Positions 3,352-18,655 of a stretch of DNA of 19,858 bases are shown here, piece after piece (positions within the stretch are counted from its first letter, which is position 1; the number at the start of each line of letters is the position of its first letter). The DNA is from Chloroflexota bacterium (GTDB taxonomy: Bacteria; Chloroflexota; UBA5177; JANWHV01). The stretch lies in NCBI GenBank assembly GCA_025924845.1, contig JAICHN010000040.1, positions 1-19,858 of the forward strand, read 5' to 3'. The position numbers and the translations under genes were made by a program. A model generated the notes under the pieces. The model did no database searches and was not told the DNA's origin. It saw only the letters and a program-made list of their open reading frames with translations.

Positions 3352-5004
3352 TTATGGCTTGGCGACCGTCAACGGTTCGCGCTTGTGGACGAGCACATCG
3401 CTGATCAGGGTCATCACGGCGCCGCTCACCGCCGTTTCCAGCGCCTTCCGCAAGACCGGCACGGGATCCAAGATGCCCGCGTCCCACATGTCCACTACCT
3501 GGCCGGTACAGGCGTCGAAGCCGGACCAGGCATCCCCCGCCCGCACCTGGGCCACCACGGCATGCGCATCGAATCCGGCGTTGGCGGCGATCACGGCAAG
3601 TGGCTCCTCGATAGCCGCCGCCAATGCCTGAAAGGCGACGCTCTCCTCGGCCGACCCCGCGGGCACCTCCAAGGCCTCACGACAAGCCAGATAGGCCGCG
3701 CCTCCGCCGGGAGCCACGCCGTCGGCCAGGGCAAGGCGGAGCGCCTTTACGGTCCGCTCGGCCAATGCCTTGCGCGTCTGCTGCTCCTGCTCGGCGTCCG
3801 CGCCAACCTTGAGAATGGCCACGCCGCCCATCAGCTTACCCAGGCGTTGCCGGACCTGTTCCACCTCATCCGCCTTGGTCGTCGTCGCCAACTCCGCCCT
3901 CACCGCCGCGATCCGCCGCCGCAGAGCGCTAGGATCCGCGTCGCCTCCGTAGACGCCGAAGTTGCCCGAATTGACCCACACGTGATTGGCGCGGCCGAGA
4001 TCATCCAGGGTGAGGTTCGCGGCCCGTTCGCCGCTCGCCGCGGCTACGACGCGTCCGCCGGTCAGCACGGCCAGATCCTCGAGAATGCGCTCTCGGAATG
4101 GCGCTTCGGCCGGCGCACGAACCGCGACCGAACGCAGCTTCCCCTGGCGATGGTTGGCGAGGAGCAAACTCAGGGCGCTCCCAGACAGCTGATCGGCGAT
4201 CACCAGTAAACCGGGACAGCCGGCGGCGACCAGTCTATCTAACAACGGAATGAGATCCTCGGCCTCGGTCAGAGCCAGGTCGCTGATCAGGAGCATTGGG
4301 CCGTCAAGCCGAACCTCCTGCTTGTCGTCATCCGTAATGAAGTACGGCGAGCAATATCCTTCGTTCCAGTGAACACCTTCCACGTACTGCCTGGTCAGGC
4401 CGGCCGCGTAGCCGTTCTCTACCAGCAGGCAGCCATCCGGCCCGATGATCTCGAGGATTTCGCCCAGCATCCTTGCCAACTCAGGATCGTGACACATGGT
4501 GAGGGCGGCGCCGGCAATCTCGTCCGGCCCATTGAGCGGCCTTGCCTGGCGAAGCAGGGCATCCGACGCCGTTACAAGGGCATGCTCAAGGTGACGACGG
4601 AGTGCGACGGGGTCGCCGCCCGCCGCGATATACGGACTCAGTTGCCGGATGATCCCCTGCAGCAGCACTGCCGTGATGGCGCCGCCATCGCCCACCGCCT
4701 CGTAGGTCTTCCAGACGGCGTGGCGGAGGATCATGGCGCCCATGTTCACGTAAGGATCAGGGAGTTCGATCATGCGCCGCAGAATGGTAGCGGCGTCGTC
4801 CAGTACCTCGACGGGCCGCCCGGAGTCTACGTCCAATACGGCAACGGTGCGCGGCAGCGGTCCCAGGGTCGGGCGTACCGTTTCCACCATGCTTGCTATG
4901 CCGCGACGCAGGGCGTCCTGGGCCGCCGCCCCGATGAGAATCCCTGGACCTGATTGGGGACTTCGCGCCTTCCCCCCTGCCTTCCGCGCCATCCGATCAG
5001 ACAT
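3352..5004 (-). CDS. Divergent GroEL-like chaperonin (Cpn60 family) with altered ATPase residues
   Basis: This 550-residue protein aligns along its whole length with group I Cpn60: equatorial motif TVRPTLGPLPRTV (43-54), NMGA (87-90), apical GYCSPYFI (216-223), LTGGRVV (314-320), APGGGAAY (431-438) and DPVPVLRKAL near 513-522. The apical substrate-binding surface is well kept. The ATP site is not. The loop GDGTTTA of GroEL reads GDGGAIT (105-111), so Asp87 is kept (D106) but the threonines are mostly lost. The residue that aligns with catalytic Asp398, counted back from the GGG motif, is Arg417. The segment DDAATIL (69-75) resembles the NDGATIL of thermosomes more than GroEL. The C-terminal GGM tail is absent. 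No GroES gene and no CIRCE operator lie next to it. It is likely a specialised paralogue, not the housekeeping chaperonin. The start at 5004 has only a weak upstream GGAAAG; ATG at codon 5 is an alternative. Confidence 0.88.
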   Translation of the reverse strand: MSDRMARKAGGKARSPQSGPGILIGAAAQDALRRGIASMVETVRPTLGPLPRTVAVLDVDSGRPVEVLDDAATILRRMIELPDPYVNMGAMILRHAVWKTYEAVGDGGAITAVLLQGIIRQLSPYIAAGGDPVALRRHLEHALVTASDALLRQARPLNGPDEIAGAALTMCHDPELARMLGEILEIIGPDGCLLVENGYAAGLTRQYVEGVHWNEGYCSPYFITDDDKQEVRLDGPMLLISDLALTEAEDLIPLLDRLVAAGCPGLLVIADQLSGSALSLLLANHRQGKLRSVAVRAPAEAPFRERILEDLAVLTGGRVVAAASGERAANLTLDDLGRANHVWVNSGNFGVYGGDADPSALRRRIAAVRAELATTTKADEVEQVRQRLGKLMGGVAILKVGADAEQEQQTRKALAERTVKALRLALADGVAPGGGAAYLACREALEVPAGSAEESVAFQALAAAIEEPLAVIAANAGFDAHAVVAQVRAGDAWSGFDACTGQVVDMWDAGILDPVPVLRKALETAVSGAVMTLISDVLVHKREPLTVAKP

Positions 5005-5334: not shown

Positions 5335-6120
5335 CTAGCCTTCGCCGAGGAACGTTCCGGAGTCACCTGCGGCAGGACCAACAAAGGTTCCCGTCCACTT
5401 CAACACGCCGATCGTCGTCTTGCTGGTGCCCACCACCATCACCGTACCTTTGTTCTTGGGCCAGAAGATGGTGGCAGCCATGTTACCGTTCGCGGCTCGG
5501 CCCACGACCGGGAGCACCGTGTCGTTGTCCAGGAACGCGAAGGTGCCGTCACCCCAACCATCGGCGGTGAGGTTGAGCGTGATCTCCCCGGCCAGGGCCA
5601 CTTTGTTCGCGCTACCCTTGCCGCTCTTGCCGCCGAGCGCAAAGCTAATGGTCTGCGTTTCGGGGGTCAATACCCACGAACCGGCATTGGCGTTTGCCGC
5701 GACGGCAACCGCGCCGCCCCACGTACCGGCCTTCTTGTTAAGAGCCTTGCCGGTCAGAGTCGCGTTCGCTGCCTTGCCCTTTACGGTCAGTTGAGCCGCG
5801 GTGGTGATCGTACCCTTTACCGACGCCGTGGTGTTGTCGGCAAGGGTGAGTGTCGCGGTAAGGATGCCCGTACTGTCCAGATTGCCGCTGACCTGACCCT
5901 CGATCGATCCGGCGCCCGTGCCCGACACGACTTGCGCCGCCAGATGATAGGTTACTGCCGTGACGGTCGCCGCCGCGGCGGGCTTGGCCGCGCTTACGGC
6001 ATGGCCGGGAGCGGCGTAGGTACTCTGCGTGACGCTGCCGCCAATGAGCGTCCCGAGGACAAGAATACAACCGAGCACGGTTCTACGCGCCGTTGACAAG
6101 TGAGTTCGAACGCCTATCAT
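5335..6120 (-). CDS. Secreted Ala/Gly/Thr-rich protein of unknown function in the sugar-importer operon
   Basis: I do not recognise this 261-residue protein. It starts with a clear export signal: basic residues at 5-13, a hydrophobic core at about 14-29, and a likely signal-peptidase I site near residue 36 (STYAA-PG). A Cys at 18 lies inside the hydrophobic core and is a poor lipobox. The mature part is rich in Ala, Gly, Thr and Val with alternating strand-like segments, which suggests an all-beta extracellular fold. No catalytic motif is visible. The start is well supported: AAGGAGT lies 9 bases before the ATG, and that site overlaps the stop codon of the upstream permease gene 14 bp away. 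This tight spacing puts the gene in the ABC-importer operon as its last member. A role in surface binding of the transported substrate is possible but is only inferred from position. Confidence 0.8.
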   Translation of the reverse strand: MIGVRTHLSTARRTVLGCILVLGTLIGGSVTQSTYAAPGHAVSAAKPAAAATVTAVTYHLAAQVVSGTGAGSIEGQVSGNLDSTGILTATLTLADNTTASVKGTITTAAQLTVKGKAANATLTGKALNKKAGTWGGAVAVAANANAGSWVLTPETQTISFALGGKSGKGSANKVALAGEITLNLTADGWGDGTFAFLDNDTVLPVVGRAANGNMAATIFWPKNKGTVMVVGTSKTTIGVLKWTGTFVGPAAGDSGTFLGEG

Positions 6121-6134
6121 GGGATTCTGACTCC

Positions 6135-7046
6135 TTAAAACTTCAAGCCGGTCATCGCCACGCCACGGATCATGTACTTCGATCCGAAGACGTAGGCGAC
6201 CATTAGCGGTATGGACGTTAACACGCCCGCCGCGATCAAATAGTCATAGCGGGTGATGAAAAGCCCCTCCAGCCCGGTAAGAAACAGTGGTAGCGTCTGG
6301 TTATTGGGACTGGTCAACACCACGAACGGCCACAGGTAATCGTTCCAGGTTCCCAGAAAGATGAAGATACTCAGCGCCGCGGCGGGCGAAGCTGAGAGCG
6401 GAATCACGATCTGGCCAAAGATCCGCCACTCCGAGGCGCCGTCAATGCGGGCGGCCTCAAGCAACTCCAGGGGAAGGGTCAGGATGAACTGACGCATCAT
6501 GAAGATGCCGAAGGTTGAGTAGAAGCCCGTGACGATCACACCTGCCAGGCTGTCGGAGAGGCCGGCATGACTGATCGTGATATAGAGCGGCACGAGCATC
6601 ACGACAAAGGGCACCATCAGGGTGGCCAGCAGCACCAGAAAGAGCAACTCCTTGCCGGGAAACCGGTACTTGGCGAACACGTATCCGGCCATGGTTGAGG
6701 TGAGGACCGACACGAAGGTCACGCTGAAGGTCACGATGACCGTGTTGCGGAAGCTGGACCACAGATTTGCCGCTCCCCACACGTACTGGTACGCGTCGAG
6801 GGTCCACTGATGCGGCAGAAAGTCTCTGGACTGCATCAATTCATGAAAGGGCTTTAATGAGCCGAACAGGGACCACACCAGGGGAGCAATGGCAATCAGC
6901 ACCCCTACGATCAGCACGAGGCCCATGACCAGTTGGCCCGGCTTAAACCGCGGTGTGCGCCTTTCGATCGACCCGTGCGATTGGCGGTAAGCGGGGTTGA
7001 TACTTACATCGGAAGGGTGAGTTGCGGCCATCGACTCTCTTGTCAT
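6135..7046 (-). CDS. ABC sugar transporter permease, MalG/carbohydrate uptake 1 type
   Basis: This 303-residue inner-membrane protein has about six hydrophobic segments (near 38-60, 103-125, 134-158, 165-185, 222-240 and 270-290). It carries the permease loop EAARIDGASEWRIFGQIVIP (197-216) that contacts the ATPase. The long N-terminal tail and the ending GLKF are usual for MalG-type permeases of the CUT1 family, which import mono- or oligosaccharides. It pairs with the MalF-type permease whose stop codon is 6 bp upstream. The ATG at 7046 lies very close to its AGGAAGG (4 bases), so ATG at codon 6 is an alternative start. No ATP-binding subunit is encoded nearby. Such systems often share one ATPase (MsmK/UgpC type) encoded elsewhere. 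Confidence 0.93.
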   Translation of the reverse strand: MTRESMAATHPSDVSINPAYRQSHGSIERRTPRFKPGQLVMGLVLIVGVLIAIAPLVWSLFGSLKPFHELMQSRDFLPHQWTLDAYQYVWGAANLWSSFRNTVIVTFSVTFVSVLTSTMAGYVFAKYRFPGKELLFLVLLATLMVPFVVMLVPLYITISHAGLSDSLAGVIVTGFYSTFGIFMMRQFILTLPLELLEAARIDGASEWRIFGQIVIPLSASPAAALSIFIFLGTWNDYLWPFVVLTSPNNQTLPLFLTGLEGLFITRYDYLIAAGVLTSIPLMVAYVFGSKYMIRGVAMTGLKF

Positions 7047-7052
7047 CCCTTC

Positions 7053-7988
7053 CTAGTAGGACCAGCTCATACGGGTGAGGCGAAGTGTTCCGAGCGTGAG
7101 CACCATGGTAATGGCGAATTCGACGAGGGCCGCGGCCGATGCCTGGCTGAACTGAAAGTTCTGGAAGGCAAGGTTGTAGATATAGAGATTGATCGTCATG
7201 GTCGAGTTGGCCGGACCGCCTCCGGTGAGCACCTGGGGAATAGTGAACTCTTGCAGCGCCCCAATCACGCCCAGAATGACCACAAGATTTAGGGTCGGCT
7301 GCACCAGGGGGAGCGTGATGTAGCGGAATCGGCCCCATTCGTTTGCTCCGTCTATCCGCGCCGCGTCATTGACCTCGGTGGGGATATTGAGCAGCCCGGC
7401 TGTCAAGATGACGATGGTGATCCCCAGCCCTTTCCAGGAACCGAAGAGCGCGGCGGTTGGAAGGGCCGCGTTGCCATCGGTCAGAAATCCGGATTGGGGC
7501 AGATGCACAAACTGTAACAGTGCATCGATTGGCCCGACCGCGGGGTCGAGCAGGTACTTGGCGATCAGGATGGTCGAGACGATCGGGACAACGACCGGCA
7601 CAAAGATCAGGCTCTGGAATAGGTTTCGCCCATGCGCCACATTGACCAGGCAGATCGCAATCACCAAGGCCAGGGGAATGCCGACGAAGATACCGATCGC
7701 GCCCCACTCGAAGCTGTTCTTCAGCGAGGTGGTAAACAGCGGATCGGAAAACAGTTCCCGGAAATTGTCCAGACCGACAAATCGGCCCGTACCGATAAGC
7801 CGATAGTGAATCAAGGCGATGTGGAACGCCTGGATCACCGACCAGAAAGAGACCACCGAGTACCACACGAGTAAGGGGACAAGCGTGACAAAACCAAACC
7901 AGAACTGCGGTTTCCGCAGCAACTTACCGACCAGGCGGGCGAATCCGCTTGATCTGGGCGCCGCGAGCCCTATACCGCTCTGCTCCAT
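7053..7988 (-). CDS. ABC sugar transporter permease, MalF/carbohydrate uptake 1 type
   Basis: This 311-residue inner-membrane protein has about six membrane segments, the first at 29-50. The signature loop reads EVNDAARIDGANEWGRFRYI (205-224), the MalF-side partner of the loop in the next gene. The start was chosen at ATG 7988, which follows GAGGA at a short but usable distance. An in-frame TTG at 8012 would add eight residues and also has a GAGG upstream, so it cannot be excluded. The gene lies between the binding protein and the second permease, in the usual CUT1 gene order. The 108-bp gap to the binding-protein stop contains a hairpin. Confidence 0.92.
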   Translation of the reverse strand: MEQSGIGLAAPRSSGFARLVGKLLRKPQFWFGFVTLVPLLVWYSVVSFWSVIQAFHIALIHYRLIGTGRFVGLDNFRELFSDPLFTTSLKNSFEWGAIGIFVGIPLALVIAICLVNVAHGRNLFQSLIFVPVVVPIVSTILIAKYLLDPAVGPIDALLQFVHLPQSGFLTDGNAALPTAALFGSWKGLGITIVILTAGLLNIPTEVNDAARIDGANEWGRFRYITLPLVQPTLNLVVILGVIGALQEFTIPQVLTGGGPANSTMTINLYIYNLAFQNFQFSQASAAALVEFAITMVLTLGTLRLTRMSWSY

Positions 7989-8037
7989 GGCGTTCCTCAC
8001 CGGTGATACCAATCCAATGCATCCTCTGCTCGCCGGT

Positions 8038-8070
8038 ACGGAGCTACCCTGGCCTACCCGATAGCTCCGT
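8038..8070 (-). terminator. Hairpin between binding-protein and permease genes
   Basis: ACGGAGCTA (8038-8046) and TAGCTCCGT (8062-8070) form a perfect 9-bp stem around a 15-base loop. Two more G-C pairs follow beyond one mismatch. There is no T-run after it. It lies just after the stop of the solute-binding-protein gene in transcription order. A stem in this place often protects the 3' end of the binding-protein message or partly stops transcription, giving more binding protein than permease. Confidence 0.5.
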
Positions 8071-8096
8071 GCCCACGCGGTAGTACTTACTGCCGT

Positions 8097-9524
8097 CTAG
8101 AGATTGGCGAGGTCACTCTTGTATTGCTTGTATTGGGCCACGGCCACGGCCTGAATCGCCTGCGCGCCTTGCTTCGCGGTCAGTTTGCCCAGGCGAACCG
8201 CCTGGCTCTGGCTGATGCAGGCGTCGACGAGCTTGTTGTAGTAGCCGACCTCGCCGATATATCTGACCGAGTCGAACGACTTCTGAATGTCCGGATTGGT
8301 GGCCAGAAAGTACGATGCATTTGTGGCGTTCGCGGGCTTGAAGCGGGTTTTGTCATGGAAGAGGATGTCCTTCCAGGCCACGATTGAAACACCGCCGTAG
8401 ATTTTGTCATAGATATACTGGCCGGGGCGCGAAGCCACCAGGCGGAGGAAACGGTCCGCGACGTTCGGGCTGTGAGCATCGGCAGACTCATTAATGCCCC
8501 ATCCCTGACCAGAGCCCACACCGACCGCTGGTTTGCCGTTTATAGCCGGAGCGCCGGCAATAACGAAATCGTAGCCCAGCGCGGGACCGAAGATGGACGC
8601 GGAGCCATTGGTCATACTAATGGCGCATTCGCCCTTGAGGGCTACATTTTCCACGGCGATAATGTCGCCCCATTCACGCTCGATCCCCATTTTGACCGGG
8701 GTCTCCACGTGAAGCTGCATAGCCTCAATGCCGGCTGGTGAATCATATTTGAACGTGCCGGTCGCCGAATCGAAGGGGAAGGTGCCCAGTTGATTCATGA
8801 TCATGTGGAGGGCCGCGTCGTCCCATCCCTCACCGCACAGGCCATAGCGGGTGACTTTTCCACCCTGCTTGAGCTGCAGCGCCTTGGCCAGGGTAAAAAG
8901 CTGATCATAGCTGTCAAAGGCGAACTTACCATTGCTGGGCGGATACTTGGATTCTAGGCCGGCCTTTTTGACCAGATCGCTCCGTACGTTGACATAGGGG
9001 CCAAGGCCGCCGTCGCATTCCAGCGGCACGCCGTAGATCTTGTTTCGCCAGGAAAACTCCTGGACCGAATCGCCGACGAAGTCGCGGGAAATCACAATGT
9101 GATTGGCCGCGTAGACGCTATTCCCGATGTCCTTTACCGCGCCCTGCGCGGCGAGAAGCACGATGTTCTGGCCGGTATTGGCGCAAAGATCGGGCTGCGT
9201 ACCGGCGGCCGTGGCGGCGATGAACTTGGTCGCGACGATCTCCGAGGCCAGGCCTGCCGCGGCCTGTGGCCTGAGAGTGATGGTCGAGCCGGTCTGTTTC
9301 TTGAACAGGGCGATCATTTCGTTGAATGCGTTGATGTGGGGCTGCCAGAGCATGCACCACATCGTGCCGGACTTTTCGAGGGCTTCGGCGCGTACGGCGG
9401 CGGGGGCCGCGGCAGCGGCCGTTTTGGCGCCCGCCTCCAGACCGGCGGCGGCCACGACGCCCGCTCCGACCGTTCCGGCCGCCGCTTTAAGGAAATCGCG
9501 TCTACTTTTTGGGGATGCGCCCAT
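8097..9524 (-). CDS. Tat-exported extracellular solute-binding protein, family 1 (sugar ABC importer)
   Basis: This 475-residue protein is the substrate receptor of the importer. The N-terminus carries a twin-arginine signal SRRDFLK at 7-13, then an Ala-rich hydrophobic stretch to about residue 40, so it is likely exported folded by the Tat system. The mature region begins with the family 1 pattern of a short strand, then HINAFNEMIALFKKQTGSTI (63-82), and continues in the usual two-lobe layout. Length matches the family (about 420-480). The start is firm: GGAGGAG lies 9 bases before the ATG. It is the first gene of a four-gene operon (binding protein, two permeases, secreted protein). The ligand is unknown; context favours a sugar or sugar acid. 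Transcription probably starts near 9680 from a promoter carrying the shared operator motif, which leaves a leader of roughly 160 bases. Confidence 0.94.
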   Translation of the reverse strand: MGASPKSRRDFLKAAAGTVGAGVVAAAGLEAGAKTAAAAAPAAVRAEALEKSGTMWCMLWQPHINAFNEMIALFKKQTGSTITLRPQAAAGLASEIVATKFIAATAAGTQPDLCANTGQNIVLLAAQGAVKDIGNSVYAANHIVISRDFVGDSVQEFSWRNKIYGVPLECDGGLGPYVNVRSDLVKKAGLESKYPPSNGKFAFDSYDQLFTLAKALQLKQGGKVTRYGLCGEGWDDAALHMIMNQLGTFPFDSATGTFKYDSPAGIEAMQLHVETPVKMGIEREWGDIIAVENVALKGECAISMTNGSASIFGPALGYDFVIAGAPAINGKPAVGVGSGQGWGINESADAHSPNVADRFLRLVASRPGQYIYDKIYGGVSIVAWKDILFHDKTRFKPANATNASYFLATNPDIQKSFDSVRYIGEVGYYNKLVDACISQSQAVRLGKLTAKQGAQAIQAVAVAQYKQYKSDLANL

Positions 9525-9688
9525 AGCCTATAACTCCTCCATGAGTTCCCGCGTGCGATTCTTTAGGTGCTTCCAGTCCGTCCGGCCGGCGAAGCCGCGA
9601 TCCTCTTCCCCTTCCCGTCTCGCTTTTGATTACCATCGGGGTGGGACGGCCCAGCCGGCGATCACCCCCCTCGATGGGAGATTCACAC

Positions 9689-9726
9689 ACCATATGCTAT
9701 CTCTATGGCATCTGTCAACAGTCGGC
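9689..9726 (-). promoter_or_regulatory. Promoter of the importer operon with operator-like site 1
   Basis: On the minus strand TTGACA (9718 down to 9713) is followed after 18 bases by TATGGT (9694 down to 9689). The site GCCGACTGTTGAC (minus strand, 9726 down to 9714) shares the decamer ACTGTTGACA with sites 2 and 3, but its left half-site is degenerate. Confidence 0.5.
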
Positions 9727-9844
9727 AAGAGCAACGTAGCGCCGTCACCTTCGCACCGTAACGAGCAAGGGCCAGGCGAAATGGCGGGCGGGGAGGATCG
9801 ATCGCTTTGGTCGCGGCCCGGTTTGTAACCGCATGGGCAGCATT

Positions 9845-9888
9845 CTGTCAAGTTAACTGTTGACAGCGGTCGGCACCGGTGCTACTTT
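9845..9888 (+). promoter_or_regulatory. Promoter of the aldolase gene with operator-like site 2
   Basis: TTGACA (9860-9865) is followed after 17 bases by TACTTT (9883-9888). Overlapping the -35 box is GTTAACTGTTGAC (9852-9864), a near palindrome that differs from site 3 by one base. A wider inverted repeat CTGTCAA (9845-9851) and TTGACAG (9860-9866) frames it. The -10 box is weak, so the promoter may depend on a regulator. Confidence 0.55.
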
Positions 9889-9949
9889 TTTATCTCATGG
9901 ACACTGGACCGGCGCGGCCTATGCATGCGCTGACGGAAAGGGATGGATG

Positions 9950-10897
9950 ATGCCAAATTCGGCGGGCGGGCACACGACCTGGAACTGGGCGGCTATCCTG
10001 CGCGGCGTGATCCCGCCGCTGATCTCTCCCCTGGACACCGAGGGGAACGTCGATGTCGAGGCCGGCGGCGCGTTGGTCAATCATTTGCTCTCCGGCGGCT
10101 GCAGCGGTCTCTTCGTGGTCGGCGGGTGCGGCATGGGTCCCTGGCTCACCACGACACAACGGGGCGAGACGATCCGCGGTATGGTCCGGGCCGCCGCCGG
10201 CCGAGCGCCTGTGCTCGCCGGCCTGATGCTCCCTTCCACCGCACCGGCCCGCGAGGCGGCCCGGCAGGCGGAGGCGGAGGGCGCCGACGCCCTCGTGGTC
10301 GGCTCTCCTTACTACTATGGGGTCGATGCCGACGACCAACGTCGTCATGTCGAGGCCATTCTGGAGGTCTCGCCGCTGCCCGTATTGCTCTATAACATCC
10401 CCCAGTGTACGTACCATCCCATCTCGCCCGAGACCGTGGCGATCCTGTCCCAAGAGCCCCGCGTCCTGGGAATCAAGGATTCGTCCGGCGTCTTGCCGAA
10501 CTTCCAGCAACTGCTGGCGATCAGGGACGCCCGCCCAGACTTTCGTGTGCTGCAAGGCGACGAGCGGGTCATGGCCGCCTGCATGCTCATGGGCGGGGAC
10601 GGCCTTATTCCGGGGGCGGGTAACGTGCAGCCGCGCTACTTTGTCGATCTGGTCCACGCGGCCGGTCGCGGGGACGTGCAAGAATGTCGTCGTCTACAGG
10701 AGCGGATCTTCGATCTCTGGAAACTCTTCGCCTACGGTCGTGGTCTCTCCGCGCTCTATGCCGCCTGCGGCCTGATCGGGATCGGCAGCGGGCGGCCGGT
10801 AGAACCGTGGATCGCGCCTGATCCGACCCAACGACAGGCCATCGAGGATATCCTGCATCGGCACGGGCTGCTCCCCCAGGCCGCCGGGCAACGCTGA
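9950..10897 (+). CDS. DapA-family aldolase/lyase (dihydrodipicolinate synthase/N-acetylneuraminate lyase superfamily)
   Basis: This 315-residue TIM-barrel enzyme should form a Schiff base with a 2-keto acid and cleave or join an aldol bond, releasing pyruvate in typical members. The Schiff-base lysine lies in GIKDSSG (K176) and the helper tyrosine in LLYNIP (Y148). GSPYYYG at 118-124 is also typical. The usual GTTGE motif near residue 58 instead reads GGCGM, so the threonine pair of true DHDPS is absent. This argues against lysine synthesis and for a catabolic role such as a 2-keto-3-deoxy-sugar-acid aldolase or a dehydratase. The start was set at ATG 9950 because AAAGGG lies 7 bases before it. 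ATG 9947 is in frame and adjacent, and a TTG further upstream at 9860 overlaps the promoter and is unlikely. The gene is followed by a hairpin, so it is probably transcribed alone. Confidence 0.88.
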   Translation: MPNSAGGHTTWNWAAILRGVIPPLISPLDTEGNVDVEAGGALVNHLLSGGCSGLFVVGGCGMGPWLTTTQRGETIRGMVRAAAGRAPVLAGLMLPSTAPAREAARQAEAEGADALVVGSPYYYGVDADDQRRHVEAILEVSPLPVLLYNIPQCTYHPISPETVAILSQEPRVLGIKDSSGVLPNFQQLLAIRDARPDFRVLQGDERVMAACMLMGGDGLIPGAGNVQPRYFVDLVHAAGRGDVQECRRLQERIFDLWKLFAYGRGLSALYAACGLIGIGSGRPVEPWIAPDPTQRQAIEDILHRHGLLPQAAGQR

Positions 10898-10919
10898 GCG
10901 CCCGGGGCTGAATCTAATG

Positions 10920-10952
10920 AAGTCGAGGCCAGGTAGTAGCTGGCCTCGGCTT
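10920..10952 (+). terminator. Hairpin terminator after the aldolase gene
   Basis: AAGTCGAGGCCAG (10920-10932) pairs with CTGGCCTCGGCTT (10940-10952) to form a 13-bp stem with one G-U pair and a 7-base loop. It lies 22 bp after the aldolase stop. No strong T-run follows, so it may be a weak or factor-assisted terminator. A new promoter follows at 11037. Confidence 0.6.
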
Positions 10953-11028
10953 GGATGTATACTGTCAGCAACTAGAAGTGAGCCATTGCTGCTGGGGTCC
11001 GTTCCCGCGGCGGGTCCCGGCAGATGTG

Positions 11029-11065
11029 GTCAACTGTTGACACACTCAAGTGCCCTTGTTATAAC
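11029..11065 (+). promoter_or_regulatory. Strong sigma-70-type promoter with palindromic operator (site 3)
   Basis: TTGACA (11037-11042), a 17-base spacer and TATAAC (11060-11065) match the housekeeping consensus at 11 of 12 positions. GTCAACTGTTGAC (11029-11041) is a perfect 13-base palindrome with a central T and covers the -35 box. A repressor bound there would block polymerase. This should drive the long catabolic cluster that follows. Confidence 0.72.
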
Positions 11066-11131
11066 TAGGCATCATAGCCGCGACGTTCTTAGTGAGCAAG
11101 CCGTCCAGGGCTCGGGCGGAAGGAGCACGGT

Positions 11132-11176
11132 ATGCTTGGATCGATGATCTTTACGGATAACCTGTATGGCTACTGA
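11132..11176 (+). CDS. Possible 14-residue leader peptide overlapping the dehydrogenase start
   Basis: The strong site GGAAGGAG (11118-11125) is followed at a good distance by ATG 11132, which opens the short frame MLGSMIFTDNLYGY and stops with TGA at 11174-11176. This frame overlaps the ATG of the next gene (11166) by 11 bases. The next gene itself lacks a good ribosome binding site, and its frame is closed by a TGA at 11145. Translational coupling through this peptide is a reasonable reading, but it could be chance. Confidence 0.4.
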   Translation: MLGSMIFTDNLYGY

Positions 11177-12152
11177 TTCCCGGCCACCCGTGGTGGTAGT
11201 GACCGACTTCGGTTTCACCGACGATCTGGCCGTCGAAAAGGCGGCCCTCGAACCGCTCGGCTGTACAGTGGTCGGCGCCCAGTGTCGAACCGCCGAAGAA
11301 GTCGCGGCGGTCACCAAGGATGCCGATTTCGTATTTACCCAGTTCGCGCCCGTCACCGCGTCGGCAATTCAGGCGATGAGTAGGGCGCGGCTGATCACTC
11401 GCTACGGGATCGGCGTGGATAATGTGGACTTGGTCGCGGCGCGCGAGCGCGGCATCCCCGTCTATAACGTGCCCGACTATTGCATTGATGAGGTGGCGGA
11501 CCACACGCTCGGGCTCATTCTCTCTCTTACCCGCCAGATCGCTCCTTTATCGGCCAGTGTCAAGGCGGGCGGCTGGAAACGGCCCCTTCCCCTACCAAAG
11601 TTTTACGCGCTGCGCGATCTGACCACCGGTGTGGTGGGGTGCGGACGGATCGGACGGCAGGTGATCGCGCGCCTCGCCCCCTTCAAGACCGAAATCCTGG
11701 CCTACGATCCCGCCATGAGCGCCGACCAGATCAAGGCCCTGGGCGCCGTCCCGGTCTCGCTCGACCAACTCTACGCCCAGAGCGATCTGGTGACCCTGCA
11801 TTGCCCCAGTACGGCGGAGACCCGGCGCATGATCAACGCGACTACCCTCTCCCAGATGAAGGACGGCGTGATCTTCATTAACGTGGCCCGCGGCACCCTG
11901 GTCGATCAGGGCGCCCTGATCGAGGCGCTGCGCAGCGGCAAAGTCGGCGCTGCCGGGCTGGATGTCACCGATCCCGAGCCGATCGAATACGATAGTCCAC
12001 TCCTGGCGATGAATAACGTGGTGATTACCAATCATTGCGCTTCCGGTAGCGACCGGGCGGCGGTCCTGCTGCGGCGCGGCGTGATCGACACGGTGGTGCT
12101 CGCCTTGCGGGGCGAGCGGTCGCCCAATTGCGTCAACGGTGTGACCTCGTGA
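11166..12152 (+). CDS. D-2-hydroxyacid dehydrogenase, NAD-dependent (phosphoglycerate dehydrogenase/CtBP-like)
   Basis: This 328-residue enzyme should interconvert a 2-hydroxy acid and a 2-keto acid with NAD(H). The nucleotide-binding motif is VVGCGRIG (156-163) followed by AYDP with Asp181, which favours NAD over NADP. The catalytic arginine is in NVARGTLVD (R242), the glutamate in DVTDPEP (E271) and the histidine in ITNHCASGSD (H290). The usual residue before that histidine is Pro, so NH is a small oddity. There is no ACT or other serine-biosynthesis domain, so a catabolic or glyoxylate/hydroxypyruvate-type role is more likely than serine synthesis. It is the first full-length gene after the strong promoter at 11029-11065. 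Its start ATG overlaps a short upstream frame that has the good ribosome binding site. Confidence 0.9.
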   Translation: MATDSRPPVVVVTDFGFTDDLAVEKAALEPLGCTVVGAQCRTAEEVAAVTKDADFVFTQFAPVTASAIQAMSRARLITRYGIGVDNVDLVAARERGIPVYNVPDYCIDEVADHTLGLILSLTRQIAPLSASVKAGGWKRPLPLPKFYALRDLTTGVVGCGRIGRQVIARLAPFKTEILAYDPAMSADQIKALGAVPVSLDQLYAQSDLVTLHCPSTAETRRMINATTLSQMKDGVIFINVARGTLVDQGALIEALRSGKVGAAGLDVTDPEPIEYDSPLLAMNNVVITNHCASGSDRAAVLLRRGVIDTVVLALRGERSPNCVNGVTS

Positions 12153-12225
12153 ATCGGGACATTGCAGTGCAGCTGCAGAGAGGGGGAGGGGCCGCGCCGT
12201 GCTACGGCGGCCCCGGGGTGAGACT

Positions 12226-13056
12226 ATGAGCCTGGAGAAGTTTGATCTTACCGGTAAGGTAGCGTTGGTAACGGGCGCGGCGGTCGGGCTTGGGCACGCC
12301 ATGGCCCTGGGCATGGCGGAGGCCGGGGCGGATGTGGCGGTCAGCGATATCAACGAAGAGGGGGTTCAGGCCACCAGCCGCGAGATCGAGAAGCTTGGCC
12401 GGCGCAGTATCGCCGTCCGCTGCGACAACGCGAAGCGCGACGATATCATGGCGCTCTACACCGAGCTCGATCGGGCCTTCGGTCGGATCAATATCTTGAT
12501 CAATAACGTTGGGGCCGGAGCGCGGTACCGTCCGGAGGAACTGCCCATTGATGAATGGGAACGGGTGGTCCGGATCTCACTCACCGGCACCTTCATCTCC
12601 GCCATCCAGGCCGGCAAGCGGATGATCGCCCAGGGTACGGGGGGCAGCATTATCAACATCGGCTCGACCTGCGGTATGTCCGGCATGGGACGGGGCAATT
12701 TGCCGCACGGCGCTTCCAAGGCGGGGGTCAATCAGATGACCCGCGATCTGGCCGTGGAATGGGGGCCGCACGGCATTCGCGTCAACTCGATCCAGCCCGC
12801 CCAGATCGCTACCGACGCCTGGGTCCGCGGGATGAACAGCATGCCCTGGGACTATCAGGCGTTCGAGCAGCATCTGCTGAACGGCATCCCCCTCGGGCGC
12901 TTGGGGAAGGACGACGACCTGGTTGGTCCCGCCGTCTTCCTCGCCTCGGACGCGGCCGCGTTCGTCACCGGCCACCTCCTCTTCGTGGATGGCGGCAACC
13001 TGGCCCTGAACGCGGCGGGGAGCATCGCCTGGCCCGCACCCCGAAAGGATGAGTGA
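12226..13056 (+). CDS. SDR-family oxidoreductase with catalytic Tyr replaced by His
   Basis: This 276-residue protein has the classical short-chain dehydrogenase layout: cofactor motif TGAAVGLG (16-23), Asp41 after the second strand (NAD preference), NNVGAG (93-98), and a VDGG motif near the end. The catalytic serine region reads NIGSTCG (S147). The expected YxxxK motif is HGASK (161-165), so the proton-donating tyrosine is His161 while Lys165 is kept. The enzyme may therefore work differently or be inactive as a dehydrogenase. The codon is CAC in a well-aligned frame, so a frameshift is not the cause. ATG 12226 was chosen because GGGGTGAG lies just before it. A GTG at 12199 would add nine residues. 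It lies 73 bp after the hydroxyacid dehydrogenase and before the FAH-family gene. Confidence 0.9.
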   Translation: MSLEKFDLTGKVALVTGAAVGLGHAMALGMAEAGADVAVSDINEEGVQATSREIEKLGRRSIAVRCDNAKRDDIMALYTELDRAFGRINILINNVGAGARYRPEELPIDEWERVVRISLTGTFISAIQAGKRMIAQGTGGSIINIGSTCGMSGMGRGNLPHGASKAGVNQMTRDLAVEWGPHGIRVNSIQPAQIATDAWVRGMNSMPWDYQAFEQHLLNGIPLGRLGKDDDLVGPAVFLASDAAAFVTGHLLFVDGGNLALNAAGSIAWPAPRKDE

Positions 13057-13077
13057 TGCACCGCTGTGCGGAGGGGA

Positions 13078-13113
13078 ATGAACCGTAATGCGGCACAGGA
13101 TGAGGAGAAATGA
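13078..13113 (+). CDS. Possible 11-residue upstream frame abutting the FAH-family gene
   Basis: GGAGGGGA at 13070-13077 sits directly next to ATG 13078, which opens the short frame MNRNAAQDEEK. Its TGA (13111-13113) ends at the base before the ATG of the next gene. The spacing is poor and the peptide is short, so this may be chance. The layout resembles the leader frame at 11132. Confidence 0.2.
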   Translation: MNRNAAQDEEK

Positions 13114-13977
13114 ATGCGACTGGTAAGCTTTGTCCGTGGCGGAGCAATCCGACTGGGCGCTCTCGGCGACCGGCAGGTGATTGACCTGAACCAGGCCGAT
13201 CCGGAACTCCCGTCTTCCATGATCGCCTTCCTTGAGAGCGGCGCGGCCGGCCTTGCTCGGGCCCGACGCGCGGTGGAGGCGGCGCCGCCCGCGGCGCGGG
13301 TTGCCCTCAGTGAGGTGACGCTCAAGGCGCCGATCCTCCATCCCGGCAAGATCATTTGTATCGGCCAGAACTATGCGGAGCACGCGGCGGAGTCCAACGC
13401 GGCCGTCTCGGCCTATCCAATCATTTTCGCCAAATACCCCAACGCCCTGATCGGCGACGGCGACGCCATCGTGCTTCCCAAGGTCAGCAACCAGGTCGAC
13501 TATGAGGGTGAACTCGCCGTGGTGATCGGCAAGCGCGCCAAAAACGTCAGCGAGGCGGAGGCGTTGGCCTATGTCGGAGGCTACGCGGCGTTCAACGACG
13601 TGAGCGCTCGCGATTACCAGATGCGCACCAGCCAATGGACGATCGGGAAGACATTCGATACCTTCGGCCCGATGGGCCCTGCCCTTACCACGGTGGACGA
13701 GGTGCCGGACCCCCAGAACCTGTCTATCCGCACCGTGGTCAGCGGTGAGGTCTTGCAGTCATCCCACACCCGCAAAATGATCTTTCCGGTCGCCGTGTTG
13801 ATTGCCTATGTCAGTTCGGTGATGACCCTGGAGCCGGGAGACATCATCGCAACCGGCACGCCGGACGGGGTGGGAGCGGCACGCACGCCGCAGCGGTTCC
13901 TGCGACCCGGTGATACGGTTCGCGTGGAGATCGAGGGGCTGGACGTGCTGGAGAACCCAGTCGTGGCCGAAGCATGA
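13114..13977 (+). CDS. Fumarylacetoacetate hydrolase family protein (2,4-diketo-acid hydrolase-like)
   Basis: This 287-residue enzyme belongs to the FAH fold and should cleave a C-C bond in a diketo acid or decarboxylate/hydrate an oxo acid. Metal ligands are visible as YEGELAVVIG (E131, E133) and FNDVSARD (D162). The catalytic histidine region is GQNYAEHAAE (H90), and the lysine is in GKTFDTFGPMGP (K179). The ending TGTPDGVG (247-254) is typical. Within bacterial sugar catabolism this subgroup includes 2,4-diketo-3-deoxy-L-fuconate and L-rhamnonate hydrolases, which make pyruvate and L-lactate. Ureidoglycolate lyase and acylpyruvase are close relatives and cannot be excluded. ATG 13114 follows GAGGAG at 6 bases. 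The 57-bp spacing from the SDR gene and 19 bp to the E1-alpha gene support one operon. Confidence 0.9.
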   Translation: MRLVSFVRGGAIRLGALGDRQVIDLNQADPELPSSMIAFLESGAAGLARARRAVEAAPPAARVALSEVTLKAPILHPGKIICIGQNYAEHAAESNAAVSAYPIIFAKYPNALIGDGDAIVLPKVSNQVDYEGELAVVIGKRAKNVSEAEALAYVGGYAAFNDVSARDYQMRTSQWTIGKTFDTFGPMGPALTTVDEVPDPQNLSIRTVVSGEVLQSSHTRKMIFPVAVLIAYVSSVMTLEPGDIIATGTPDGVGAARTPQRFLRPGDTVRVEIEGLDVLENPVVAEA

Positions 13978-13996
13978 CAAAGGAGGACATGGGTCA

Positions 13997-14992
13997 ATGG
14001 TAACCGCGGCCGGCACCACCCTGAGCAAGACGGATCTGCTGTCGCTGTATAGAAAGATGCTTGTACTCAGGCGAACCGAGGAGCAATTGGTCAGAGCCCA
14101 CCAGGGCGGCCTCATTCCCGGCGCCTGCCATACCTATGTCGGCGAGGAGGCCATTGCCGTGGGGGTCTGCGCCCATTTGCGCGACCAGGACGTGGTCTTC
14201 AGCACCCATCGCGGCCACGGCCATGCCCTCGCCAAGGGGGTCAGCCCCCGCGTGCTGATGGCCGAATTGTTCGGCCGGTCAACCGGCGTCTCAGGCGGTC
14301 GGGGCGGCAGCATGCATCTCTTCTCGCCTGAAATCGGCCTTTTGGGCACCAGCGGCATTGTCGGTCCCAGTATCCTGATGGCTACCGGAGCGGGCTATGC
14401 CTTTCGCCTGAGGGGAACCGATCTGGTCAGCGTGGCCTTCTTCGGCGACGGCGCCAGCAATAACGGCGCCTTCCATGAAGGAATCAATATGGCCGCGATC
14501 TGGGACCTTCCGGTGCTGTTCATCTGTGAAAACAACATGTATGCCACCGAGGTGCCGTACGCCACCGTGGCGCGCAACACCAGCGTAGCCGAACGTGGCG
14601 CCGTCTACGGCTTGCCCAGTATCGCGGTGGACGGCAACGATGTCCAGGCGGTCTATGCGGCGGCGGGCGAAGCGGTGCGCCGCGCCCGGGCCGGCGAAGG
14701 GCCGACCCTGCTCGAATGCAAGACCTATCGCACCCGCAGCCATGCCGAGGGCATGCGCGACGTCGGCTATCGCACGACCGATGAAGTGGCGTCCTGGAAA
14801 GAGCGCAGTCCGATCACCCGTCTCAAGGAGCGTCTACTGGCCGAGGGCCTGGCGAGTGAGGAAGACTGCGCCCGAATCGAGGCCGAGGTCGAGGTCGAGG
14901 TGGAGGAGGCGCGGCAGTTCGCCGTCGCCGGCCCGTATCCGGATCCCGCGACCGTGCTCGATCACGTCTACAGCAATCGAGAGGGACGATAA
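13997..14992 (+). CDS. 2-oxoacid dehydrogenase E1 alpha subunit (pyruvate/acetoin type)
   Basis: This 331-residue subunit binds thiamine diphosphate and, with E1 beta, decarboxylates a 2-oxo acid (or cleaves acetoin) and passes the acyl group to E2. The cofactor motif is visible as GDGASNNGAFHEG (150-162) ending in ENN (178-180). The HRGHGH (71-76) and TYRTRSHAEG (243-252) regions are typical of the active site and loop. Length and sequence style fit PdhA/AcoA-type E1 alpha. The start was set at ATG 13997, 10 bases after AGGAGG (13981-13986). The stop codon TAA shares one base with the ATG of E1 beta, which implies translational coupling. The substrate cannot be fixed; pyruvate from the upstream cleavage enzymes is the simplest guess. 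Confidence 0.93.
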   Translation: MVTAAGTTLSKTDLLSLYRKMLVLRRTEEQLVRAHQGGLIPGACHTYVGEEAIAVGVCAHLRDQDVVFSTHRGHGHALAKGVSPRVLMAELFGRSTGVSGGRGGSMHLFSPEIGLLGTSGIVGPSILMATGAGYAFRLRGTDLVSVAFFGDGASNNGAFHEGINMAAIWDLPVLFICENNMYATEVPYATVARNTSVAERGAVYGLPSIAVDGNDVQAVYAAAGEAVRRARAGEGPTLLECKTYRTRSHAEGMRDVGYRTTDEVASWKERSPITRLKERLLAEGLASEEDCARIEAEVEVEVEEARQFAVAGPYPDPATVLDHVYSNREGR

Positions 14993-15969
14993 TGCGGGAT
15001 CTGACTTTTACCGTCGCTGCCCGCGAGGGCCTGGCTGAGGAGATGGAGCGGGACGACACCGTCTTCGTGGTAGGCGAGGGCATCGGAGAACGGGGCGGCA
15101 ACTGGGCCACCACGGTCGGCCTCTACGAGCGGTTCGGACCCTGGCGCCTACGCGATACGCCGATCTCGGAGCGCGGCTTCACGGGTATGTGTACCGGTGC
15201 CGCGCTGGCCGGCACGCGTCCTATCGTGGACTTCATGTTCATCGACTTTCTGCTCGACGCCTGGGGCGAAATCATCAATCAAATGGCGAAGATGCAGTAC
15301 ATGAGTTCAGGCAGATTGAAAATGCCGATCGTCTTGCGCGGGGCCATTGGAGTGGGTCATGCCTCGGCTACCCACCACTCCGGCAGCTATTACTCAATGC
15401 TCGGTCACGTACCTGGTCTCAAAGTTGTCATTCCCACCAATCCCCGCGATGCCAAGGGCTTGCTCAAGACCGCTATCCGTTCCGATGATCCCGTGTTCTT
15501 CCTGGAGCATAAATCGGTGTTCGGGGTCCGCGGCCCGGTGCCGGACGAGGAGTACCTGATCCCCTTCGGCGAGGCGTCCGTGGTCCGCGAGGGCAGCGAT
15601 GCCACGGTGGTGGCGATCGGCTGGATGGTGCATCAAACGTTGGCCGCCTGCGCGGAACTGGCCAAGGACGGCCTTTCGATCGAGGTGATCGACCCGCGAA
15701 CCATCCTGCCCCTTGATATCGATACGATCCTGGCCTCGGTCCACAAGACGGGCCGTCTGCTGATCGTGGACGAGGATTACAGCTACTTTGGGGTGGGCGC
15801 CGAAATCACGGCCCAGGTGGTGGCGCGAAGTTTCGACGACCTGGACGCGCCGGTACAGCGCTTGAACGGCAGTTTCGCCCCCGTGCCCTACAGTCCGCCC
15901 CTGGAAGCCGCGATGGTGCCCAATCCTACCACCATTGCCCAGGCTATACGCGACTTGCTGGCCGAGTGA
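14992..15969 (+). CDS. 2-oxoacid dehydrogenase E1 beta subunit (pyruvate/acetoin type)
   Basis: This 325-residue partner of E1 alpha completes the thiamine-dependent heterotetramer. The conserved glutamate that activates thiamine lies in TPISERGFTG (E60). The active-site histidine region is HASATHHSGSYYSM (123-136), where most homologues have QHS; here it is HHS. The C-terminal transketolase domain contains EVIDPRTILPLD (near 230-241). The ATG overlaps the E1 alpha stop (TAATG). The E2 gene follows after about 46 bp. Confidence 0.93.
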   Translation: MRDLTFTVAAREGLAEEMERDDTVFVVGEGIGERGGNWATTVGLYERFGPWRLRDTPISERGFTGMCTGAALAGTRPIVDFMFIDFLLDAWGEIINQMAKMQYMSSGRLKMPIVLRGAIGVGHASATHHSGSYYSMLGHVPGLKVVIPTNPRDAKGLLKTAIRSDDPVFFLEHKSVFGVRGPVPDEEYLIPFGEASVVREGSDATVVAIGWMVHQTLAACAELAKDGLSIEVIDPRTILPLDIDTILASVHKTGRLLIVDEDYSYFGVGAEITAQVVARSFDDLDAPVQRLNGSFAPVPYSPPLEAAMVPNPTTIAQAIRDLLAE

Positions 15970-16015
15970 TGACCCAGACACGGCGCTCGTCGATGAAGCA
16001 AGGGAGGAAGCACGC

Positions 16016-17368
16016 GTGGCGGTAGAAGTGGTGATGCCGCGCCTGGGCTGGACGATGGAAACCGGCAGCGTGGCGGAATGGCTCAAGCACGACGGCGATG
16101 AGGTGCAAGCGGGCGATATCTTATTCACGGTCGAAACGGATAAGGTGGCGCAGGAAGTCGAGTCCATGGATAGCGGCATTCTGCGCATGCCGCCCGACAG
16201 CGCGCCCCCCGGCACCGCCGTTCCGGTGGGGGCCGTGCTGGCCTACCTGGTGCAGCCCGGCGAGGCGCCGCCCTTCGATGCGCGGCCTACGCCGCCCGCG
16301 CCGGCGCCGGTCCAGACTCCCCAAGCAGTGGCACCGGAGACGGTAGCCGGCGCGGCGGCCGTCCGGGCCAACGGCCTTGGCTCATCACCGGCCAGCCCGC
16401 GGGCTCGTCGGGTTGCCAAGGAGTTGGGGGTCGATTGGACCACGATTGCCGGCACCGGCCGAACCGGGCGGATCGTGGAGCGCGACGTGCGTGCCGTCGC
16501 CGCGCAACCGGCCGCGGCGCGGGCGCGGATAAGCCCCGTGGCGCGGAGGGTGGCCCAACAACAAGGGGTCGATCTGGATGAACTGGCGGCCCAGATGCCC
16601 GACAAGCGGATCACGCGGGCCGACATTGACGCTGCCGTCCGTCCCCCCGCTGACCAGGCTCCGCTGGGTGGGCGCTCCGAACCGCTCAGCCGAATGAGGC
16701 GCATCATCGGCGAGCGCATGGCCCAGAGCGTACATACGGTGGCGCCGGTCACCCTTACCACCGAGGTCGATGCGACCGAATTGGTGGCGCTGCGCGGACG
16801 AATCAAGCAGTCCTTGGCCGGATCCAACCGGCCAACCCCCTCCTATACCGATCTACTCGCGCGCCTGACAGCTCTCACCTTACTGGAGCATCCTCAGCTG
16901 AACAGCACGCTCACCGGAGAGGCGATCGTGCGTCACGATGTCGTGCATATCGGGATCGCGGTAGACACGGAGCAGGGCTTGCTGGTGCCGGTGGTGCGCG
17001 ATGCGCATCTGAAGTCGATCCAACGTATTGCCGAGGAATCGGCCCAGTTGATCGCGGCGGCGCGCGCCGGCAAGTCGAAGTCCGACGATCTAGGGGGAAG
17101 CACCTTTAGCATCACCAACCTGGGCATGTACGAGATCGACGCCTTTACGCCGATCATCAATCTCCCCGAGTGCGCCATCCTGGGCGTGGGCCGAATCATC
17201 GCCCGCCAGGTCGTGATCGACGAGGAAACCGAGGAACTTGCCGTCCGGAAGATGCTTGCGTTGAGTCTCACCTTTGACCATCGCGTGGTGGATGGGGCGC
17301 CCGCCGCCCGATTCCTCCAACAAGTCAAACACGGGATCGAGCATCCCTATGGCTGGCTTATCGCATAG
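16016..17368 (+). CDS. 2-oxoacid dehydrogenase E2 component (dihydrolipoamide acyltransferase) with two peripheral-subunit-binding domains
   Basis: This 450-residue acyltransferase forms the core of the complex. Domains in order: one lipoyl domain (1-80) with lipoylation lysine K43 in VETDKVAQEVES; a Pro/Ala linker (83-123); a first subunit-binding domain (125-161) with SPRARRVAKELGVD and GTGRTGRI; a second, more divergent copy (171-208) with ISPVARRVAQQQGVD and RITRADID but no GTG loop; and the catalytic domain (222-450) with the DHRVVDG motif (H422, D426). Most bacterial E2 proteins have one such binding domain. The start was set at GTG 16016, which follows GGGAGGA at 7 bases; ATG 15935 lies inside E1 beta. 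No dihydrolipoamide dehydrogenase (E3) gene follows, so E3 must be supplied from elsewhere. Confidence 0.93.
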   Translation: MAVEVVMPRLGWTMETGSVAEWLKHDGDEVQAGDILFTVETDKVAQEVESMDSGILRMPPDSAPPGTAVPVGAVLAYLVQPGEAPPFDARPTPPAPAPVQTPQAVAPETVAGAAAVRANGLGSSPASPRARRVAKELGVDWTTIAGTGRTGRIVERDVRAVAAQPAAARARISPVARRVAQQQGVDLDELAAQMPDKRITRADIDAAVRPPADQAPLGGRSEPLSRMRRIIGERMAQSVHTVAPVTLTTEVDATELVALRGRIKQSLAGSNRPTPSYTDLLARLTALTLLEHPQLNSTLTGEAIVRHDVVHIGIAVDTEQGLLVPVVRDAHLKSIQRIAEESAQLIAAARAGKSKSDDLGGSTFSITNLGMYEIDAFTPIINLPECAILGVGRIIARQVVIDEETEELAVRKMLALSLTFDHRVVDGAPAARFLQQVKHGIEHPYGWLIA

Positions 17369-17504
17369 CTTCTCATAAAAGCGACTTTGCCTTGGGGGGC
17401 CGGGATGGGGAAGCAAAAGCGGCGCTATTCTTCGGAGTAACTTCGGCCGCGAGTTATATCATCCGCCGCTGTCCGGTAATGGGTGGCGTAATCTGGAGGG
17501 TACA

Positions 17505-18599
17505 TTGGACGACGTACTGGTCGACGCGGATTCACTGCGGCGCTTCACGGCCGGGGTGCTGGAGGCGGTAGGGGTCGGTAGCGAGGATGCCGCCATCACA
17601 GCGGATGTCTTGGTCACGGCCGACCTGACCGGGCACGAATCGCACGGGGTGGCACGGCTGGAAGAGCAGTATTTGCGGCCGGTCCAGACGGGCGCGATTC
17701 GCGCCGGCGGCGGTTTGGTTACCCTGCGCGAAACGGCCGCCGTTTTGGTGCTTGACGCCCAGAACGGCCTGGGGCACCCCGCCGCGAAGCACGCTATGGA
17801 TCGCTGCATTGCCAAGGCGCGCGAGGCCGGAACGTGCATCGCCGTGGTGCGGCACAGCAATCACTATGGGATTGCGGGCTACTATCCGATGATGGCTGCC
17901 GCGCAGGATATGGTCGGCATCTGCTGCACCACGGCGGGCGCCCTCGTCGTACCCACGGGGGGCCGCAATATGTTGCTGGGCACTAACCCCCTGGCCGTCG
18001 CCGCGCCGACAAGGCGAAACCATCCCTTTATGCTTGACATGGCCACCAGTGTGGTGCCGATCGGCAAGGTAGAGGTGAAGGCGCGCCGCGCCACGCCCTT
18101 GCCTCTGGGTTGGGCGGTTGATGAACAGGGTCGGCCCACCACGGATGCCGCGGCGATGCTCGGTCATGCCTTTGGTGATATGAAAGGCGGCCTGCTCCCC
18201 CTCGGCGGCCTTGAGGCGGGGCATAAAGGCTACGGACTTGCCGTCATGGTCGATATCCTCTCCGGCGTGCTGGCAGGCGCCCAGGTCAGTCTGCATCTAC
18301 GCGAGGCGATGGCGCGCGGCGAGGGTGCCGGCGTGGGCCACTTCCTGGCGGCTATCGACCTCGCCGCCTTCTTTGACTCGGTAGACGAGTTCAAGGACGC
18401 CATGGATGCCTACATCGACGACCTGCACGCCGCACCGTGCGCTCCCGGCACGGATCGGATTCGCGTGGCCGGCGAACCGGAAGCCGAGGCGCGGGAACGT
18501 CACCTACGGGCCGGGCTTCCCTTGCATGGCGGCGTAGCGGCATCGCTCCAGGATTTGGGGCGAGAACTAAAGGTACCTCTATTCCAGCTGCTTGGGTAG
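17505..18599 (+). CDS. Malate/L-lactate/ureidoglycolate dehydrogenase family (Ldh2-type), NAD(P)-dependent
   Basis: This 364-residue enzyme belongs to the Ldh2/YlbC fold, unrelated to classical lactate or malate dehydrogenases. Members oxidise 2-hydroxy acids such as L-malate, L-lactate-like acids, sulfolactate or ureidoglycolate. Visible motifs are DLTGHESHGVARL (40-52, active-site His47), RHSNHYG (116-122, His120), LLGTNPLAVAAP and HKGYGLAVMVDILSG. The C-terminal pattern RVAGEPEAEAR and GLPL is also typical. The start is a TTG at 17505 with GGAGGG 5 bases before it; no in-frame ATG gives a full N-terminus. It lies 136 bp after E2, where I see no clear promoter or terminator, so it is probably still in the same cluster. 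In this context oxidation of L-lactate or a related product to pyruvate is plausible. Confidence 0.9.
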   Translation: MDDVLVDADSLRRFTAGVLEAVGVGSEDAAITADVLVTADLTGHESHGVARLEEQYLRPVQTGAIRAGGGLVTLRETAAVLVLDAQNGLGHPAAKHAMDRCIAKAREAGTCIAVVRHSNHYGIAGYYPMMAAAQDMVGICCTTAGALVVPTGGRNMLLGTNPLAVAAPTRRNHPFMLDMATSVVPIGKVEVKARRATPLPLGWAVDEQGRPTTDAAAMLGHAFGDMKGGLLPLGGLEAGHKGYGLAVMVDILSGVLAGAQVSLHLREAMARGEGAGVGHFLAAIDLAAFFDSVDEFKDAMDAYIDDLHAAPCAPGTDRIRVAGEPEAEARERHLRAGLPLHGGVAASLQDLGRELKVPLFQLLG

Positions 18600-18655
18600 C
18601 AGCCTAGCACGGGCTATGGGTGCTATGCTTGACGGATAGGACGGAGGAGAGATGC

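Follow-up and report, generated by a model that had tools for sequence, protein, structure and literature searches.

The window, as we call the whole 19,858-nt stretch of Chloroflexota DNA that was analysed, encodes a GroEL paralogue in which the catalytic aspartate is replaced by arginine. The protein belongs to a single clade of Chloroflexota paralogues and is under purifying selection, and genes of this clade are repeatedly paired with a gene for a β-propeller protein of 7 or about 14 blades. From these observations we infer an ATPase defect and a partnership with the propeller. We propose, at a probability of about 0.45, that the window protein is a chaperonin of group I, that it binds ATP with very slow hydrolysis or none, and that it is reserved for the propeller as a chamber or holder (features in Table 1). 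ATP hydrolysis is regarded as the clock of GroEL, and the laboratory mutant D398A nearly stops it.

Table 1. Position of the chaperonin gene, its altered sites and its neighbours in the window.
Feature	Position	Strand	Basis
Cpn60/GroEL paralogue, divergent group I, 550 aa	3352..5004	minus	ORF, Pfam, NCBIfam, AlphaFold2
R417 codon (GroEL catalytic D398)	3754..3756	minus	ungapped alignment
D70 codon (GroEL D52, retained)	4795..4797	minus	alignment column
GDGGAIT for GroEL GDGTTTA; D106 is Mg-binding D87	4672..4692	minus	alignment
C-terminal tail VLVHKREPLTVAKP, replaces Gly-Met tail	3355..3396	minus	sequence comparison
BNR/Asp-box seven-bladed β-propeller, 325 aa	2333..3310	minus	Pfam, AlphaFold2, blade profile
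261-aa protein, signal-peptide-like start, upstream neighbour	5335..6120	minus	ORF; no Pfam match

The window chaperonin matched Cpn60_TCP1 (Pfam PF00118) with 139 bits (cut-off 34) and the NCBIfam model PRK12849 with 422 bits (cut-off 352), and it scored 393 bits with the GroEL equivalog TIGR02348, below the cut-off of 582. Its AlphaFold2 model (pLDDT 89.5) has the three-domain GroEL fold, with a TM score of 0.88 to PDB 5opx. Profile and fold both identify the protein as a member of the Cpn60/GroEL superfamily. GroEL-type chaperonins were the top PDB sequence matches, and identity with E. coli GroEL was 33% (residues 22–539). The initial annotation had described the segment DAATIL as thermosome-like, a resemblance that is superficial by profile scores. 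A thermosome origin was rejected: the thermosome model TIGR02339 gave 55.7 bits against a cut-off of 671.1, compared with 393–422 bits for the GroEL models, and the CCT models gave 24–51 bits, far under the family cut-offs.

R417 aligns without gaps with GroEL D398, and the phosphate-loop motif GDGTTTA reads GDGGAIT (TTT replaced by GAI), as had been noted from the sequence alone. The equivalents of D52 and D87 are retained in the window protein, so weak hydrolysis may persist; E. coli GroEL D398A has about 2% residual ATPase activity (PMC3813556). E416 had been considered as an acidic stand-in for D398, but it aligns with E397. That column is variable among the best 120 of 210 relatives (E 61, Q 24, K 12, R 10, others or gap 13); because it is not conserved, E416 was rejected as a substitute.

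Like E. coli GroEL, the window protein keeps the three domains, the GGG loop and the pocket residues G32, G88, G415 and D495. The apical client-binding surface is also conserved, as first described, with Y199, S201, Y203, F204, L237, L259 and N265 identical. Unlike E. coli GroEL, it has LP in place of K34-G35, alanine for the inter-ring R452, and E and S for R197 and K327, residues that are altered in much of the Arg class as well. E386-R197 and D83-K327 form intra-ring salt bridges in GroEL. The loss of the GGM tail was confirmed: VLVHKREPLTVAKP stands in its place, and similar tails were seen by eye in most relatives among the matches listed. The long GGM repeat is missing also from several canonical Chloroflexota GroELs.

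Relatives were collected by scoring 7996 candidates, 210 of which passed an E value of 1e-30. Among the best 120 of these 210, the window protein included, position 398 is R in 84, A in 21, E in 6, H in 2, Q in 2, K in 1, G in 1 and a gap in 3, and the few proteins with a named organism come from Chloroflexota. The listed proteins, together with cpn60 genes of Chloroflexota genomes and with E. coli GroEL as the root, gave a tree of 236 rows, in which a few genes are represented both by their protein and by their locus. In the FastTree reconstruction, 148 rows form a single Chloroflexota paralogue clade (support 1.00) that sits among the canonical GroELs of the phylum; three very divergent rows from one locus (L182) were kept out of both the clade and the canonical group. 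IQ-TREE likewise placed the paralogues on one side of one branch (SH-aLRT 100; 52 of 75 chosen rows). The initial annotation had looked to a tree for the place of the protein among groups I, II and III. The tree covers E. coli GroEL and Chloroflexota cpn60 sequences, with the paralogues as one clade among the canonical GroELs; the comparison beyond group I was by profile score. The claim of a paralogue without the catalytic aspartate extends to the clade as a whole, and its reading as a slow or non-hydrolysing chaperonin is plausible by analogy with the GroEL mutant.

Position 398 separates the 148 clade rows into R (85), A/S/G (26), D (15), E (13) and other residues or gap (9), whereas every one of the 85 canonical rows has D52, D87 and D398. 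Alanine replaces T90 in 82 of the 85 rows with R, and G32, D87, G88, G415 and D495 are each preserved in 80 to 85 of these 85, most misses being gaps. The A/S/G class has mostly lost D52 too (24/26), and D87N occurs in 9 of the 13 rows with Glu. Read by eye, the FastTree topology implies two or more departures from aspartate. On the 75-row IQ-TREE tree, which was computed with the 398 column included and has several inner forks open, the state of this residue (D, E, R or other) changes 7 times. The basal paralogues keep D398, yet their K34-G35 pair is altered and they carry the new tail.

The nearest relative with DNA (L001) encodes an orthologue 77% identical to the window chaperonin and shares the order ABC permease, 261-aa gene and cpn60. 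Between the two genes dN/dS was 0.098, at a dS of 1.6 that is near saturation. The window chaperonin is under purifying selection, and a pseudogene was rejected because dN/dS is about 0.10. Further close relatives were not found in the order (1 genome) or class (7 genomes) of this closest relative genome (G001).

The gene immediately downstream of the window chaperonin, which the initial annotation overlooked, lies on the same strand after a gap of 41 bp, and a GGGGAGGG stretch precedes its ATG. Its product matched the BNR families PF02012 (39 bits, cut-off 27) and PF15902 (47 bits, cut-off 33). The AlphaFold2 model (pLDDT 91.3, pTM 0.90) has seven blades, and a blade profile built from the window propeller and its relatives found seven repeats. 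Blades were counted with this profile, since Asp-box and first-strand patterns missed some. Long relatives gave 12 to 15 blade matches, with 14 in 6 of 11. No signal peptide was evident by eye in the window propeller or the long relatives. The scores do not identify the protein as Ycf48 (PRK13684, 26.8 against a cut-off of 326; PF14870, 26 against 27). G-beta is the best PDB match of the model, mainly an effect of the shared fold.

When the neighbours at 24 loci (the window and 23 others) were clustered, a single 12-member BNR cluster was obtained, all of whose members are same-strand downstream neighbours of cpn60 paralogues. The fetched loci were then merged and their cpn60 genes classed by two profiles into 41 distinct paralogue-like and 88 canonical-like genes. 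A propeller gene lies immediately downstream of 21 of the 41 paralogues (18 lack it and 2 are cut by contig ends), but of none of the 88 canonical-like genes, 80 of which are flanked by 400 bp or more. Three of the pairs (L119, L131, L148) came to light through their propeller genes, and the count is 18/38 if they are left out. These pair counts span related loci and are not phylogenetically independent. A chance neighbour was rejected on the contrast of 21/41 with 0/88.

Pairing accompanies the loss of D398, although the loci share ancestry and pairs occur in the Asp class as well. Split by residue 398, a propeller gene follows 9 of 9 Glu genes (one more is cut off), 4/7 with A/S/G, 3/7 with Arg, 1/1 with Gln and 3/14 with Asp. 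The totals are 17 of 24 assessable genes that have lost D398 and 3 of 14 that have kept it, the residue being unread in one further pair and one cut-off gene. In the subclass that combines D87N with D398E (L002, which is the same as L054, L090, L093, L098, L099 and L212; also L056), the propeller gene adjoins all six members that were assessable and had both residues read; at L056 the contig breaks off. The nearest relative, L001, lacks an adjacent propeller gene; a partial one lies on another contig of its genome.

In the reverse direction, 40 stretches around propeller genes not known to be paired were inspected. Four contain an adjoining paralogue gene or fragment (L119, L131, L143, L148) and 36 show no cpn60; three of the latter (L118, L125, L133) have less than 400 bp to the contig end on the expected chaperonin side. 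The surroundings of unpaired propellers are mixed, with a glycerate-kinase-like gene and a LysM protein, and folate genes, recurring by eye.

At the level of genomes, the propeller family (E ≤ 1e-60, query from L083) is present in 50 of 301 Chloroflexota genomes. The paralogue, assigned by score rank and tree with four candidates scored per genome, occurs in 27 of the 301. The propeller accompanies it in 23/27 genomes as against 27/274 of the others (Fisher p 8e-17, with counts made by eye). Of the four misses, G147 and G186 have a weaker propeller gene adjacent to the paralogue, and four genomes outside the 27 (G138, G143, G154, G234) have paralogue genes or fragments that each adjoin a propeller gene. 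The propeller without a known paralogue occurs in 24 genomes; cpn60 was searched copy by copy in 11 of these, and the fetched copies fell outside the clade. The propeller therefore does not need the chaperonin in general. In the class of G195 the propeller is found in 10 of 11 genomes with paralogues and 2 of 18 without, and one of those two (G234) has a paralogue fragment. In the class of G002 many propeller genomes have no clade member, so that presence there tells little.

No GroES match was found in the window (best E value 0.88), and the window gene differs from E. coli groEL in that groES is not adjacent. All 15 of the relatives' genomes that were searched have a groES gene. The closest relative genome has three cpn60 genes, one of which is canonical, keeps D398 and adjoins groES. 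Within the fetched stretches groES accompanies 42 of 88 canonical-like genes and 6 of 41 paralogues, crude counts because flanks differ in length. Five of these six (L060–L064, from G119, G036, G079, G223 and G159) are basal, keep D398 and have a tail ending in NVNP, with groES adjacent; they are possible intermediates between groESL and the derived pairs. The sixth, L131, is the only D398-less paralogue beside groES, and its stretch also holds a canonical cpn60.

These data suggest that (i) the window chaperonin has retained the fold of GroEL, its apical client surface and most of its nucleotide pocket, and would still form rings and bind ATP; (ii) with Asp398 gone, along with parts of the allosteric and ATP-phosphate network, ATP hydrolysis would be many times slower than in GroEL or absent, and the protein would act as a chamber or holder that cycles slowly or does not cycle; and (iii) the propeller from the adjoining gene may be a dedicated client that is folded, assembled or stored there, general folding being left to the ordinary GroEL-GroES. 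The holder or scaffold of the initial annotation is thus one of several readings, now with a candidate client or partner. The 7 or 14 blades match a seven-fold ring, which is suggestive only. The match may be coincidence, because seven is the commonest blade number of propellers and unlinked family members are similarly long.

Alternatively, the two proteins may form a lasting complex, in which a static ring serves as scaffold or store and has the propeller as its cofactor, cap or plug, and not as a client to be released. We regard this as unlikely, although the loss of the catalytic residue and of salt-bridge partners argues against cycling, D398-less paralogues lie away from groES save for L131, and 7 blades here and 12–15 blade matches in the long partners, 14 in six of eleven, would suit seven-fold rings; the symmetry is open to the doubt just given. 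A bolder proposal, quite improbable in our view, is that the lineage abandoned ATP-driven cycling at least twice after duplication, leaving a seven-fold ring, locked with ATP, that would hold or assemble a cytosolic propeller of 7 or 14 blades, or carry it as a cap. The pair would be the bacterial analogue of CCT with its WD40 clients, and their symmetries would match.

The paralogue could instead be a general-purpose or stress-specific GroEL that hydrolyses slowly through D52 and D87 and still cooperates with GroES, its propeller neighbour being incidental. The retained D52 and D87 equivalents, the conserved apical GroES- and client-binding residues and the groES genes of the relatives would fit, and GroEL D398A still binds GroES. 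The propeller downstream of 21/41 paralogues and 0/88 canonical-like genes, and the additional loss of D52 in 24/26 of the A/S/G subclass, make this explanation unlikely as well. Hetero-oligomeric chaperonins exist, chloroplast Cpn60 among them, and relatives' genomes hold canonical copies with which a non-hydrolysing regulatory subunit could mix to slow or tune their rings. Such a role is very unlikely for a protein that is only about 34–38% identical to most of the canonical copies fetched, has a different tail and carries alanine at inter-ring R452. A decaying duplicate without function would explain the missing catalytic residues, but it is barely credible given the low dN/dS (0.098 at dS 1.6), the sites and tails common to many relatives and the recurrent propeller pairing.

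Our preferred reading, a dedicated chamber or holder for the propeller, has partial parallels. MmoG and PrmG are GroEL-like genes in monooxygenase operons with a presumed client; the operon link is similar, and the type of client and the lineage differ. CCT/TRiC is a chaperonin that serves seven-bladed propellers, and WD40 propellers, G-beta among them, need it for folding (PMC8544692). The window protein, unlike CCT/TRiC, is not group II by sequence (56 versus 393–422 bits). Divergent GroEL paralogues with differences in the ATP region are already known: in Chlamydiae, GroEL2 and GroEL3 coexist with a canonical GroEL and are reported to differ in their ATP- and GroES-binding regions (PMC1892554). 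They belong to another lineage, and the window protein scored 149.9 and 154.4 bits with NF038370 and NF038369 against cut-offs of 600. We know of no propeller partner of the chlamydial proteins. Actinobacterial and other duplicate GroELs can lose the Gly-Met tail in one copy and keep it in the other (PMC11978752); the accessible sections of that source treat tails and not loss of the catalytic Asp, and never name Chloroflexi. A description of the clade, or of the chaperonin-propeller pairing, was not found in one open-access literature library.

D52A/D398A is an engineered GroEL double mutant. The natural lineage described here has Arg at 398, or Ala/Ser/Gly, mostly with D52 lost, or Glu, often with D87 changed to Asn. 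With a window member under purifying selection and canonical GroEL in its relatives, it offers a test of how a chaperonin can be used without hydrolysis, and the recurrent propeller neighbour is a candidate client for such tests. The paralogues that combine the new tail with an intact D398, five of which adjoin groES, branch off outside the D398-less ones; the order in which the groES neighbour was lost, the propeller gained and catalysis lost can therefore be deduced.

Elsewhere in the window, a minus-strand frame at 3–2486 that runs off the end is a GH2-like glycosidase by eye. Together with ABC transporter and sugar-acid-like genes (6135–19450), it resembles a carbohydrate-use region, also by eye.

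Other chaperonin oddities were observed among the fetched loci. A 1135-aa frame in G207 (L182, 2009–5413, minus strand) contains two whole cpn60 domains (36–563 and 578–1108), with Asn at position 398 in the first and Asp in the second. Adjoining it is a third cpn60, also divergent, whose residue 398 is Lys. The 1135-aa frame is either a natural tandem-fused chaperonin or an assembly error. G013, G207, G281 and others in the class of G002 have at least 3 to 9 cpn60 profile matches each, some of them fragments of single genes, and many cpn60 copies in this class keep D398 and have odd tails, including very long GGM repeats.
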